This document shows, piece by piece, positions 3,079 through 36,343 of a stretch of DNA of 64,000 nucleotides (the first letter of the stretch is position 1; the number at the start of each line of letters is the position of its first letter). Under the pieces are notes generated by a model that saw only the letters and a list, made by a program, of their open reading frames with translations, made no database searches and was not told the origin of the DNA. Source of the DNA: an uncultured bacterium (GTDB lineage Bacteria; Cyanobacteriota; Vampirovibrionia; Gastranaerophilales; Gastranaerophilaceae); assembly GCA_947073645.1 (NCBI GenBank), contig CAMTMK010000005.1, positions 31,977 to 95,976 of the forward strand. Reading direction: 5' to 3'. A program made the translations under genes and the position numbers.

Positions 3079-4167
3079 ATGATTATAAAAATAAAAGCTG
3101 AAGATTTAACAAAAGTTTTAAGTAAAATAAAATATATTGCAAAATCGGATAAAAATCGACCAGAGCTCGGGTCAGGATTATTTGAGACAGGTTGTAATGG
3201 AATAACAACAATTTCTGTATCAAGTTTAGTTGACAGTGCAATAGTGTCTATTTCTGCTGAAATTATTCAAGACGGAAAATGTATGATTGATATTGCGCAG
3301 CTTATAAGTATTCTTTCAACAATGTCAGGCGAAGTTGAAATTGAATATAACCCTGATAATTCTGTTGTATGGATAAAAAATAAAAAAACAAAATGCAGAT
3401 TGAATTCATTGGATGTAAAAAAGTTTCTTCCAAGAATTAATATTTCAGATGTTGAGTCAGATTTTATTATTTCATCTAAAGATTTAAAAGAAGGATTGCA
3501 GAAAACTATCAAATTTGTTGATTCAAATTCTAACGCTATTATGTCAGGTGTTTGTGTTAATGTTCAAAATAATCTTGTAAAATTCATTGCAACTAATGGA
3601 AGTTATATGTCGATAGCTGTTAGAAGTGTAAAAGATGAAGAATTTGGGCGCAGTTTTAACTTTGTTTTACCAAGAGCTTCTGTTGCTAATATTTTACCAA
3701 TGCTCAACGGAAATGAGGATGTTTATTTAAAATTCAATTCAAGCAGATGTTGTTTTGAATTCTCTCAGGTTTTATATTGTACTGGACTTTTGGAAGGGAA
3801 ATATCCTAATTGTGAAGGGTTTATTGCTAAAGAGTATGATGTGGACTTTAGTGTTAATAAAAGTGATTTAAAACGAGTCCTGGAGAGAATAAGTATTGTT
3901 GAAACTAAAAATGATAAGCATAGGGTGTTTTTTACTGTTAAAGGTGTATTAGCAACAATTGAAGCTAAGGATTATAAATGCAATGACGTTTTGGAACTTG
4001 TAGAAAAAAATGGCAATGATATTTCATTTGTATTAAACCGTTTGTTTCTTGAAGATGTTATATCTGTTTTGCAGGTTGAAAATATGCGATTTAAGATGAC
4101 CTCAAGTCGAAGTCCTATAATATTACCTGATGTAGGTGATACGTATTTGATTATGCCAATGACTTAG
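3079..4167 (+). CDS. dnaN: DNA polymerase III beta sliding clamp homologue (phage-encoded)
   Basis: 362 aa; DnaN-like pattern over full length, C-terminal SSRSPIILPDVGDTYLIMPMT resembles the clamp YLIMPMR end. Confidence 0.85.
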   Translation: MIIKIKAEDLTKVLSKIKYIAKSDKNRPELGSGLFETGCNGITTISVSSLVDSAIVSISAEIIQDGKCMIDIAQLISILSTMSGEVEIEYNPDNSVVWIKNKKTKCRLNSLDVKKFLPRINISDVESDFIISSKDLKEGLQKTIKFVDSNSNAIMSGVCVNVQNNLVKFIATNGSYMSIAVRSVKDEEFGRSFNFVLPRASVANILPMLNGNEDVYLKFNSSRCCFEFSQVLYCTGLLEGKYPNCEGFIAKEYDVDFSVNKSDLKRVLERISIVETKNDKHRVFFTVKGVLATIEAKDYKCNDVLELVEKNGNDISFVLNRLFLEDVISVLQVENMRFKMTSSRSPIILPDVGDTYLIMPMT

Positions 4168-4183
4168 TTTTAATAAAGAGAGG

Positions 4184-4516
4184 ATGAAAATGTTTGAAGA
4201 ATTTGAAAAATTTGAAGAAAAAACTTTTGTTGGATTCTGTACTGAACCAGAAATAAAGTTCAATGACAAGGGGACTGCTATTTGTAAATTCGGTATTCCG
4301 TTAGGCGGTGATAAAAAAGCTGAAAAACCTTTATGGTTAAATTGTAAACTTTATAAAGAAGCCGCAGAAGCTTTTGCCGAATGTTGTCAAAAAGGCTGTC
4401 TAGTAAAAGTTTGCGGAAAGTTTTATCAATATGAGTATAATTCAAATATTTATACAGAATTTTTGGTTAGAGATTTTATTAAAATTTCAGACCCTATAGA
4501 AAAGAAAGAGGACTAA
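4184..4516 (+). CDS. ssb: single-stranded DNA-binding protein (OB fold)
   Basis: FVGFCTEPEIKFNDKGTAICKFGIPLGGDKKAEKPLWLNCKLYKEAAEAFAECCQKGCLVKVCGKF is SSB-like. Confidence 0.75.
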   Translation: MKMFEEFEKFEEKTFVGFCTEPEIKFNDKGTAICKFGIPLGGDKKAEKPLWLNCKLYKEAAEAFAECCQKGCLVKVCGKFYQYEYNSNIYTEFLVRDFIKISDPIEKKED

Positions 4517-8090: not shown

Positions 8091-9062
8091 ATGGATTATG
8101 GTTTTAACGTAGAATTAGCGCAGAAAATTGGTGTCAACGAGGCTATTGTGGTTCGTAACTTTCAATTTTGGCTGCAAAAAAATAAAGCTAACAATAAAAA
8201 TTTTTGTGAGGGGCGATTCTGGACTTACAATTCACTTGATGCGCTTTGCAAAATATTTCCGTTTTGGAGTAAAGACCAGATACGTAATATTTTGAAAAAA
8301 TTAACTTCTGCAAATATTTTGATTAAAGGTAATTTTAATAAAAATATTTATGACAAAACAGTTTGGTATTCAATAAATGATGAAATATTGGCTCAATTGC
8401 TCGGAGGTGATAAACTTCCCGAACAAAATGAAATTAATAACGATAAGATACAAAAAGAGCCTAAAAGTATCGAAATGGTCGATATGGTAAATTTACCATA
8501 TCGACATGGTGAAAATCCCACATCGACATGGGAAAATCACCACATCGATATGGTAAATTCCCCACTTCGATGTGGTAAAATTACCACACCTATACCAGAT
8601 ATAAACACAGATAGTAAACCATGTGATAAAACACATACACATAAGTGTGTGCGTGAAATTTTTTCAAACAGTCCAGAGGTTGATGAATTTTGCGCGGATT
8701 ATAAGGCTATAAAAGGCTCGGAAGTTATTGCGCTAAAGGAAAAGACTGAAATTGCAAAAGTTTTGACTGCTGAAAATGGATATGATAAGGAGTTTTGGTG
8801 TGCTGTTTTTAAAAAATCTCTCGGCGGGTGGCAAATTAACGAAAATGGCAGAGTGCGAAGAGTGCCATGCGGATTAAAAACAATTTTAGAAGATTATGGT
8901 GCAATATTCCGCAATGAAAAAGGGTTGGAAAAAGTTAGTTCCAACCCTGTACAAGTTATAAAAGTACCCGACTCTGAAATCTCTGATGAGGAACGTGTGA
9001 AAGTTCGTGTATTTAACAACGAGCAAAAGGCCCAATTAAGACAAAAAATCTATAGTTCATGA
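8091..9062 (+). CDS. phage replication/replisome-organizer-like protein
   Basis: N-terminal wHTH-like region (AQKIGVNEAIVVRNFQFWLQKNK...FWTYNSLDALCKIFPFWSKDQIRNILKKLTSANILIKGNFNKNIYDKTVWYSI) typical of replication initiators; carries internal iteron-like repeats. Confidence 0.7.
   Translation: MDYGFNVELAQKIGVNEAIVVRNFQFWLQKNKANNKNFCEGRFWTYNSLDALCKIFPFWSKDQIRNILKKLTSANILIKGNFNKNIYDKTVWYSINDEILAQLLGGDKLPEQNEINNDKIQKEPKSIEMVDMVNLPYRHGENPTSTWENHHIDMVNSPLRCGKITTPIPDINTDSKPCDKTHTHKCVREIFSNSPEVDEFCADYKAIKGSEVIALKEKTEIAKVLTAENGYDKEFWCAVFKKSLGGWQINENGRVRRVPCGLKTILEDYGAIFRNEKGLEKVSSNPVQVIKVPDSEISDEERVKVRVFNNEQKAQLRQKIYSS
8476..8585 (+). repeat. Five tandem 22-bp iteron-like direct repeats (candidate replication origin)
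   Basis: tggtcgatatggtaaatttacc / atatcgacatggtgaaaatccc / acatcgacatgggaaaatcacc / acatcgatatggtaaattcccc / acttcgatgtggtaaaattacc, each exactly 22 bp. Confidence 0.85.
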
Positions 9063-33496: not shown

Positions 33497-34018
33497 ATGA
33501 AAATATTTTTGAATGCAGGTCATGGTGGAAGTGACCCTGGAGCAGTTTCAAAAAATGGATTAAAAGAAAAAGATGTTACGAAGAAAATTTGTGACATATT
33601 AGCAATGATACTGCATAAAAGGGGGCATTTTGTTATACAGTACCAGGAGCAAAGATCTTATTTGGAAATAACAAAAGAAGAAAATAAAAGTGGAGTTGAT
33701 TTATTTATATCTGTACACTGTAATAGTTTTAGTGTTGATTCTGCACATGGTGTAGAAACTTTGTATTATCCAACTTCTATAAAAGGCAAAAAACTTGCTG
33801 AAAGTGTTCAAAAAGAATTGTTGGTAAAAACAGGTCTTTTTAATCGTGGGTGTAAAATGCGCAGAGATTTGCATGTATTAAATGCAACAAAAGCTCCTGC
33901 TGTATTAGTTGAGTGTGCATTTATATCAAATCCGACAGAAGAAAAACTTTTAAAAAGTAATCCTGAACTTTTTGCTCAAGGGATTGCTGATGGTATAGAA
34001 AATTATGTAACAATTTAG
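33497..34018 (+). CDS. N-acetylmuramoyl-L-alanine amidase (Amidase_3) endolysin
   Basis: MKIFLNAGHGGSDPGAV...DLFISVHCNSF...HGVETLYYPTS...PAVLVECAFISNPTEEKLL. Confidence 0.95.
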   Translation: MKIFLNAGHGGSDPGAVSKNGLKEKDVTKKICDILAMILHKRGHFVIQYQEQRSYLEITKEENKSGVDLFISVHCNSFSVDSAHGVETLYYPTSIKGKKLAESVQKELLVKTGLFNRGCKMRRDLHVLNATKAPAVLVECAFISNPTEEKLLKSNPELFAQGIADGIENYVTI

Positions 34019-34031
34019 TTCTCTTATATTT

Positions 34032-34055
34032 CCCTGCATTTTGCAGGGTTTTTTT
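34032..34055 (+). terminator. rho-independent terminator after endolysin
   Basis: CCCTGCA-ttt-TGCAGGG followed by T tract. Confidence 0.9.
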
Positions 34056-34273
34056 ATTTTAGAAATATTTACAAATTGTTTTATTTATATTATAATTTTA
34101 TTTTTAATATTATTTTTTATTACAAAGTGTAGTTTGAAAAGTTAGAATGAGTGCTTTGTTTATTATATTAAGACTTAGGCAGCCAAAAATTCGATAATAC
34201 TGTTAAAAAGTATAATATTTTCGGGTTTTGTTAAAACTTCTTTTAGTTCGAAGTATGTCCTACAAGGCGCCCC

Positions 34274-34311
34274 ATAGAAAAGCAGATAACAAAAGTTATC
34301 TGCTTTTCTAT
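34274..34311. terminator. 17-bp perfect stem hairpin, likely bidirectional terminator
   Basis: ATAGAAAAGCAGATAAC-aaaa-GTTATCTGCTTTTCTAT. Confidence 0.6.
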
Positions 34312-34331
34312 TTTACTGTAGTTTACTTTGA

Positions 34332-34526
34332 TGGTATCCTATAAATATAGTTAATGTAAAAGTAAGAATAGAATATAACGAATTCACAGAAGATGACGGA
34401 ATAATAGAAAGAAAAGTTTATCCCGTTGTATCTCCTAAAGTTGAATATTCTTTAACTGCAAAGGGGGAAAGTTTGATTCCGATTTTACTTGAAATGAGGA
34501 AATGGGGTGAAAAGTATGGAGAATAG
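34332..34526 (+). pseudogene. HxlR-family transcriptional regulator C-terminal remnant
   Basis: No start codon; open frame [45 protein letters not shown] is the HxlR C-terminal signature; N-terminal half absent. Confidence 0.75.
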
Positions 34527-34851
34527 ATTCTTATATAAATATATTCTTGTAAGTTTTTTTGTAATTGTTGTTATACCATGTTGTTTAACAAAATTGCCCT
34601 TGCAATACTTTGGATTTATTTTATCAATAATTTACTTTCTTGCAGTATTACCGATTTATTTTATATTAGCAGCTTTAACATGCAAAAAGAAATCAAAAAT
34701 GCTGTGGATTTTGCCAATTATTGATATTTTATTCTTTTTGCTGACGTCTGTATTATTTTTTAATTCGGGAATAGCTTTATACTTGCTAATTTATGTGCCA
34801 TTGGCATATATTGCAATTACAGTTAAATGTTTTTTGAAATCCAATCAATAA
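34507..34851 (+). CDS. small multi-TM membrane protein
   Basis: 114 aa highly hydrophobic ORF. Confidence 0.6.
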
Positions 34852-35166
34852 GTTTTTTATATAGAGTCTCAAGTTCGTTTTTTTCAATTGATTGAGTTGT
34901 TTTCTATTTATGCAAATATTTAAGATTTCTTGGTCTATTCCCCGCAAGCATTCAAGTAATTCCTTTTTAGTTTTTACATAAGTGTTGGTTTCAATAAAAT
35001 ATTTGGCTTGCAAAATAAAAAATGTCATTTTGTATAAGTTTTGCAAATCTTCTGAAAAATTAGCCGAATGCACAAAACTATGAACTGCTGCGTGATATAA
35101 AGTTTCAGAACTTGTTTTAATATTCATTTGTTTCAAATAATTTAATTCTGCCATATTCGCCATCAT
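34786..35166 (-). CDS. HEPN-like domain protein (tentative)
   Basis: helical SSETLYHAAVHSFVHSANFSEDLQNLYKMTFFILQAKYFIETNTYVKTKKELLECL. Confidence 0.4.
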   Translation of the reverse strand: MMANMAELNYLKQMNIKTSSETLYHAAVHSFVHSANFSEDLQNLYKMTFFILQAKYFIETNTYVKTKKELLECLRGIDQEILNICINRKQLNQLKKTNLRLYIKNLLIGFQKTFNCNCNICQWHIN

Positions 35167-36343
35167 AGCCAGCTTGTTTTATTACTTTGCCTTGTCGTAG
35201 ACGTGAAATCCCTTCACCTAATAATGTTGAGTGTTTTGTAATTTCATCTATCGGAATACTTTGTAGTATTGCAAGTTCTGAACCAAATGTATTAATAAGG
35301 TTTTCATACTCTCTTGCTACAGATTTACTTGTTATACCTTTTTGCATAATTTCAGATAAAATTTCTTGTAGTGGAACAAGACTGTAAACTTTGCCGGAAG
35401 TTTCAGGTGGTGTAATAATTTTATCGCGGTCAGAAAGTTCATTTACTCTGTATAATACCCCGATAGTTAAAGGCTTTCCGCAAACAGGACAGATGCCGTT
35501 AAGTTTTTTGGTTTCTTCAGGTGTAAGATGTATACTGCATTTTCGGTGTCCGTCTTCATGATATTTGCCTTCTTCCGGAAAAAATTCTACTGTTCCGTCA
35601 TATCCATCGCCGGTTTTAAGTGCATGCTTAATAGAAAAATAATCAGGTTCTCTACTGAATACAGTAGCTTCTCTTGCTAATTTTGAAGGAGAATGTGCAT
35701 CAGAATTTGAAACAAGTCTGAATTTATCAAGTTTAGAAACATGCCAGTTCATTTCAGGGTCTGAAGAAAGCCCTGTTTCAAGGGCAAAAATATGTTCAGA
35801 AAGGTCGTCATAGCATTCTTCTATGCTGTCAAACCCTGATTTTGAACCAAGTACAGAGAACCAGGGTGTCCAAATGTGTGCAGGGATTATGTAAGAATGT
35901 TCGTTGCTTTCTAATGTAATTTCAAGTAAATTTCTGGAATCTAAGCCTAATATTGGTCGTCCGTCAGATTTTATATTACCTATAGAAGCAAGTTTGGTTC
36001 TAAATTTTTCTGCGGTTTGTATATCCGGTACAAAAACGATTTGGTGGACTTTTCGTGTTTTCTCCCATTTTTTGTATATAGTTGATATTTCAACAGATAG
36101 GATAAATTTTACGGATGCATTGATTGTTTTTTCTATCTCCGGTTTAAGTCTGAATGTTCCATTATCTGCAGGGATAAGTTTTTCTTTTATCTCATCAAAC
36201 CAAGCTGGATGTGTAAAATCGCCTGTTGAAATAAGGTTTAAACCTTTCTTTTTTGCCCATATTGCAAGTTCTTCAAGTGTACAATTTTTACTTGTTGCTC
36301 GTGAATATTTTGAATGTATATGTAAATCGGTATAGTAAAGCAT
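35117..36343 (-). CDS. Endonuclease Q family (PHP-domain) deaminated-base repair nuclease
   Basis: YYTDLHIHSKYSRATSKN...STGDFTHPAW...SNSDAHSPSKLAREA...CSIHLTPEET...CPVCGKPLTIGVLYRVNELSDR. Confidence 0.85.
   Translation of the reverse strand: MLYYTDLHIHSKYSRATSKNCTLEELAIWAKKKGLNLISTGDFTHPAWFDEIKEKLIPADNGTFRLKPEIEKTINASVKFILSVEISTIYKKWEKTRKVHQIVFVPDIQTAEKFRTKLASIGNIKSDGRPILGLDSRNLLEITLESNEHSYIIPAHIWTPWFSVLGSKSGFDSIEECYDDLSEHIFALETGLSSDPEMNWHVSKLDKFRLVSNSDAHSPSKLAREATVFSREPDYFSIKHALKTGDGYDGTVEFFPEEGKYHEDGHRKCSIHLTPEETKKLNGICPVCGKPLTIGVLYRVNELSDRDKIITPPETSGKVYSLVPLQEILSEIMQKGITSKSVAREYENLINTFGSELAILQSIPIDEITKHSTLLGEGISRLRQGKVIKQAGYDGEYGRIKLFETNEY

Follow-up and report, generated by a model that had tools for sequence, protein, structure and literature searches.

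The window, the whole 64,000-nucleotide stretch of DNA analysed here, carries a prophage with an initiator gene at 8091..9062 on the plus strand. Its match to phrog_11233 and a structural model describe a 323-residue protein with an N-terminal winged-helix domain, a disordered linker and a C-terminal domain. Upstream in the same replication region the prophage has its own sliding-clamp homologue (3079-4167, plus strand) and SSB (4184-4516, plus strand), together spanning 3079..4516; a Dam methylase gene stands shortly ahead of the initiator gene, and terminase, portal and minor-tail genes lie downstream of it. Of the ORFs tested in the neighbourhood of the initiator gene, none was recognisable as a helicase loader. 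GC skew keeps its sign at 8.5 kb and gives no independent origin signal there. Around 34000-36000 the skew, about +0.2 until then, declines to zero or slightly negative values and the coding strand switches, possibly marking the prophage boundary or a module border.

The initiator falls within phrog_11233, matching this 'replication initiation protein' profile with E=1.6e-30 over residues 4-119. It also matches phrog_678 ('O-like', E=2.4e-11), a profile broader than lambda O, and, through its N-terminal part only and with no Pfam match alongside, phrog_6493 ('DnaD-like helicase loader', E=1.8e-22). No Pfam family was found for the protein at E<=1, and searches by sequence among solved structures gave no convincing match. 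In the AlphaFold model, residues 1-100 form a confident winged-helix domain (pLDDT 92-98) with helices at 7-13, 15-33, 49-55 and 61-73 and wing strands at 77-80 and 92-95. The closest PDB folds are N-domains of plasmid Rep and initiator proteins (4pql, 4pt7 and 5kbj, with a Rep-DNA complex among them), the best of these being a weak match (E=1.1e-3, 14% identity). By sequence the protein does not belong to RepA_N (PF06970), for which it has no Pfam match, the likeness being one of fold only. On the model and fold matches, the winged helix-turn-helix domain (codons 1-105, 8091..8405, plus strand) would be the iteron-binding part, and its predicted recognition helix (codons 61-73, 8271..8309, plus strand) includes D62 (8274-8276) and R65 (8283-8285). 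Because pLDDT falls below 50 at residues 112-116, 119-195 and 200-213, codons 112-195 (8424..8675, plus strand) are predicted to encode a disordered linker. The DNA of this linker contains both the iterons and an AT-rich block, and the protein is thus predicted to be disordered where its gene encodes the origin. The C-terminal domain (8676..9062, plus strand), a putative recruiter of replication machinery, is similar in relatives from the same host family and is modelled at low confidence.

Within the linker, Tandem Repeats Finder detects a single array at 8479-8588 (period 22, 5.0 copies, 76% matches, 0% indels, score 122), and a separate repeat search returned the same register with spacings of 22, 22 and 22. 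Lying wholly inside the ORF at 8091-9062, mid-gene and about 390 bp past the start codon, it consists of the units TCGATATGGTAAATTTACCATA (8479..8500), TCGACATGGTGAAAATCCCACA (8501..8522), TCGACATGGGAAAATCACCACA (8523..8544), TCGATATGGTAAATTCCCCACT (8545..8566) and TCGATGTGGTAAAATTACCACA (8567..8588), none of them assigned to a strand. The preliminary description had reported five 22-bp units of exact period in a replication gene, which both searches confirm. It had found the same array but placed it 3 bp off, at 8476-8585, and had given all units the core TCGAYRTGGKRAAAWT, which is exact in two of the five (8501 and 8567) and carries one or two mismatches in the other three. The peptide that it quoted agrees with the translation, and successive units encode different peptides because a period of 22 does not divide by 3. 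The 1.71-Mb genome has no exact match to the core pattern outside the array. At distance 22, 67 of 89 positions within the array match. Shuffling the bases 20,000 times never gave more than 40 matches, and 20,000 shuffles among synonymous codons, with the peptide preserved, never gave more than 62 (mean 45.5, sd 4.4). The DNA repeat is therefore stronger than the peptide forces, as expected from the earlier claim that selection acts on DNA rather than on protein.

Is the array simply a run of direct repeats? The core also matches the reverse strand at 8489, 8533 and 8555, so the units are palindromic, and the array is an 11-bp lattice of half-sites in alternately inverted orientation (GATGTGGTAAA); the first reading, of 22-bp iterons, had the period right and missed the lattice. 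TCGA-type dyads are centred after bases 8480, 8502, 8524, 8546 and 8568, and AAATT-type dyads after bases 8491, 8513, 8535, 8557 and 8579. Across 74, later 107, non-redundant origins the dyad score peaks exactly at -11, -22, -33, -44, -55 and -66 from ACC|TATACC, reaching 0.39-0.62 at these lattice points compared with about 0.24 elsewhere. From this regularity it follows that the array is a row of alternating 11-bp half-sites. Half-site positions 5-9 are specific to each phage, with agreement of 0.52-0.70 within one phage versus 0.25-0.47 between phages, and the flanks are common to phages. A further lattice point of the window lies between 8590 and 8591, inside the AT-rich block.

That block, an element of 12-bp repeats (ACC|TATACCAGATATAAACACAGATAGTAAACC), adjoins the array on its 3' side in fixed phase. 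It occupies 8588..8630 on the plus strand, begins with ACC|TATA and contains the 12-mers CCAGATATAAAC (8595-8606), ACAGATAGTAAA (8607-8618) and CCATGTGATAAA (8619-8630), all on the plus strand; we regard it as a candidate DNA-unwinding element. The block is defined by a family consensus (ACCTATACCAGATAtaAAcaCAgATa.tAAAcCAgaT), by autocorrelation at 12 bp (0.56 versus about 0.32) and by an exact 25-mer, which a block scan found in 66 viral contigs. A degenerate form of the block was found in 16 bacterial genome contigs, whose titles name Firmicutes, Patescibacteria, Spirochaetes, Victivallales, Psychrobacter and Robiginitomaculum; a variant block pattern matched one contig. All 82 block sites in these 66 viral and 16 bacterial contigs fall inside long ORFs with the initiator signature, in a single frame, and 22 is the best upstream period in 78 of the 82 loci. 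Given the constant frame, and with 12 a multiple of 3, it could be argued that the peptide alone is conserved here. Against a peptide-only reading, and for conservation at the DNA level, the modal synonym appears 467 times in codons 4-12, compared with an expectation of 236 (codons 1-3, which had served to find the block, were left out), and GC content in the block stays at 0.17-0.42 even in genes above 45% GC. Just past the 12-mers, 8621-8664 (ACACATACACA...GTGTGTG) is partly an inverted repeat, largely conserved in the same host family (loci L221-L225).

With the window protein as the only query, neither viral nor genome contigs yielded relatives; profile and block scans did. In a homologue from the same genus the N-domain is 69% and the C-terminal part 46% identical, and between them an array sits in the same place and phase. 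Other homologues from the same host family have lattices of 11-bp half-sites at this position too, with a depth of five units over the part displayed. Farther afield, phrog_11233 relatives in phages of Bacteroides, Flavobacterium, Vibrio, Burkholderia, Staphylococcus and Listeria share the N-terminal domain and mostly carry, at the corresponding place, repeats of 22 (or 22/23) bp, whereas their iteron arms have other sequences and their C-terminal domains are exchanged. The preliminary description had named, as contrary to its reading, homologues that conserve the peptide and not the DNA repeats. We found the opposite: among 97 non-redundant homologous genes, from loci gathered by protein or family searches, the best linker period is 22 or 44 bp in 87, with arms that are phage-specific. 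One contig binned to Patescibacteria (L170) has the same block and initiator, yet an iteron period of 21 bp, a multiple of 3 and nearer two helical turns. The C-terminal domains have been swapped between unrelated N-domains in several relatives (for example at loci L011, L019 and L031), and the domains of 80alpha ORF20 and lambda O are among those exchanged; some relatives' C-terminal domain resembles that of 80alpha ORF20 (60% over 105 aa) and some have a lambda-O-like C-terminal piece (37% over 54 aa). These matches are consistent with exchange of a module that would recruit replication machinery.

Which part of the protein might read the half-sites? In a set of 97 origins (effective number 58), half-site base 7 covaries with residue 62 (Z=13.3), and bases 6 and 5 covary with residue 65 (Z=12.4 and Z=5.7, respectively), the 99th percentile of all residue-base pairs being 4.7; nearest-neighbour pair tests give p=1.9e-4 for residue 62 with base 7 and p=2e-6 for residue 65 with base 6. 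R65 is paired with T5 in 51 of 52 cases and with G6 in 49 of 52; K62 goes with C7, R62 with A7, and D, H, N or Y at residue 62 mostly with G7 (D62 in five of five). The window, with D62, R65 and the core TGG, fits this code, and both residues lie within the first turn or turns of the predicted helix 61-73. With relatives above 70% identity held out, base 7 is predicted correctly from residue 62 in 70/97 origins against a baseline of 43/97; for base 6, residue 65 gives 62/97, little gain over the 60/97 reached from R versus not-R. Shared ancestry is only partly controlled in the pair test, since for base 7 some further residues come to a p of about 1e-4 as well. The covariation lies in the recognition helix and therefore ties the N-terminal domain to the repeats; it is indirect evidence, from which we infer that the initiator binds them. 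Together with the 22/44-bp period in 87 of the 97 genes, it supports the earlier proposal of an iteron origin bound by the initiator in whose gene it lies.

On these comparisons, the locus is very probably the replication origin of the prophage, built into its initiator gene. Iteron origins have tandem, helically phased repeats in the initiator gene, here 5 x 22 bp, and an adjacent AT-rich element, which by sequence is the stretch of conserved 12-mers at 8588-8630. The preliminary description had recognised the array inside the gene as an embedded origin and had overlooked the 12-bp AT-rich block that completes it. Binding, melting, helicase recruitment and origin activity can be pictured from sequence as follows. 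In the 8091-9062 product, the N-terminal winged-helix domain would bind the 11-bp half-site, each palindromic 22-bp unit would take a pair of proteins on half-sites of alternating orientation, and the five units would load a protein array on one face of the helix. This assembly would then open the adjoining 12-bp repeats, and the C-terminal domain would bring in the host helicase machinery.

This anatomy resembles that of lambda, 80alpha and pSK41, in which the initiator's binding sites lie within the gene that encodes it and the protein opens an adjoining AT-rich element (PMC7466680, PMC5043065, PMC5499656, PMC5703833). In lambda the iterons are inverted repeats in the middle of O, with an AT-rich tract on their 3' side (PMC7466680), but there are four of them at 20-24 bp spacing, and the tract is A-rich where the window's family has CAGATA 12-mers. 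The parallel with lambda O drawn in the preliminary description thus holds for the working principle and not for descent: by sequence the window protein is not a lambda O, having no BLASTP match to it, and the short C-terminal match is confined to some relatives. For 80alpha, ORF20 is not complementable in trans, and ORF20 with ORF21 suffices for plasmid replication, which by this cis-complementation evidence embeds the origin in the initiator gene (PMC5499656). Several relatives of the window protein share its C-terminal domain; in contrast, BLAST finds no similarity between ORF20 and the N-terminal domain of the window protein, and the in-gene repeats of ORF20 have a 15-bp rather than a 22-bp period. 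In the RepA_N protein pSK41 Rep, a winged-helix NTD recognises boxes that lie within rep, the protein can do without its ori-encoded linker and the CTD is separate (PMC5703833). The window protein is like it in this layout and in its best PDB folds, and differs in having no RepA_N Pfam match. Plasmid Rep proteins also bind one strand of the repeated 13-mers in their AT-rich region (PMC4081077), a model for what might happen at the 12-mers of the window.

Could the array serve mainly as an operator, bound by the initiator or another phage regulator for transcription control rather than for starting replication? Plasmid iterons often double in autoregulation, and the covariation, which indicates binding by the initiator family, is silent on its purpose. 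Yet in the window and in relatives alike the array lies mid-gene, some 390 bp into the coding sequence, it is phase-locked to a conserved low-GC block of 12-mers, and the region has no promoter-like excess; we consider a mainly regulatory array very unlikely. An origin within the initiator gene also accounts better for the repeats than selection for a repeated peptide linker, a reading with hardly any probability left to it. The gene is indeed open throughout, and the linker peptides of close relatives are partly similar, but units encoding different peptides, a DNA periodicity above that of every synonymous shuffle and a linker predicted to be disordered all speak against it.

The palindromes might instead act in the mRNA, as a hairpin controlling translation or stability. 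A stretch of 171 nt around the array has a folding energy of -58 kcal/mol, compared with -29 for shuffles (z=-7.7), although such folding is expected of any palindromic direct repeat, and overlapping dyads every 11 bp cannot all pair at once. G-T mismatches are slightly above what composition predicts (0.67 versus 0.54 relative to A-C, z=2.6, uncorrected for kinship), but they are fewer than A-C mismatches (237 versus 356). RNA pairing does not predict covariation with a recognition helix, and Rfam gave no match. A role in the mRNA accordingly seems extremely improbable, and the replication origin remains our preferred reading.

An origin embedded in its initiator gene is, as a kind, already known from lambda O, 80alpha ORF20 and pSK41 Rep. 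In open-licence PubMed Central papers we found no prior report of the 11-bp lattice, the shared 12-mers or the two-residue code, which may have been described in other literature. We speculate, with some doubt, that phages of several phyla share one origin plan, in which iteron specificity drifts freely under a simple code of residues 62 and 65, while the 12-mer block stays nearly fixed because, once it has melted, the sequence of one strand is recognised by the initiator, or else by a conserved factor of the host, and serves these phages as a common signal for loading. The near-invariance of the block raises the question of what it is that recognises it across phages whose hosts differ so widely. 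With the sequence signature, candidate replication origins can be located in many uncultured phages, and the covariation provides a testable rule connecting two amino acids with origin specificity.
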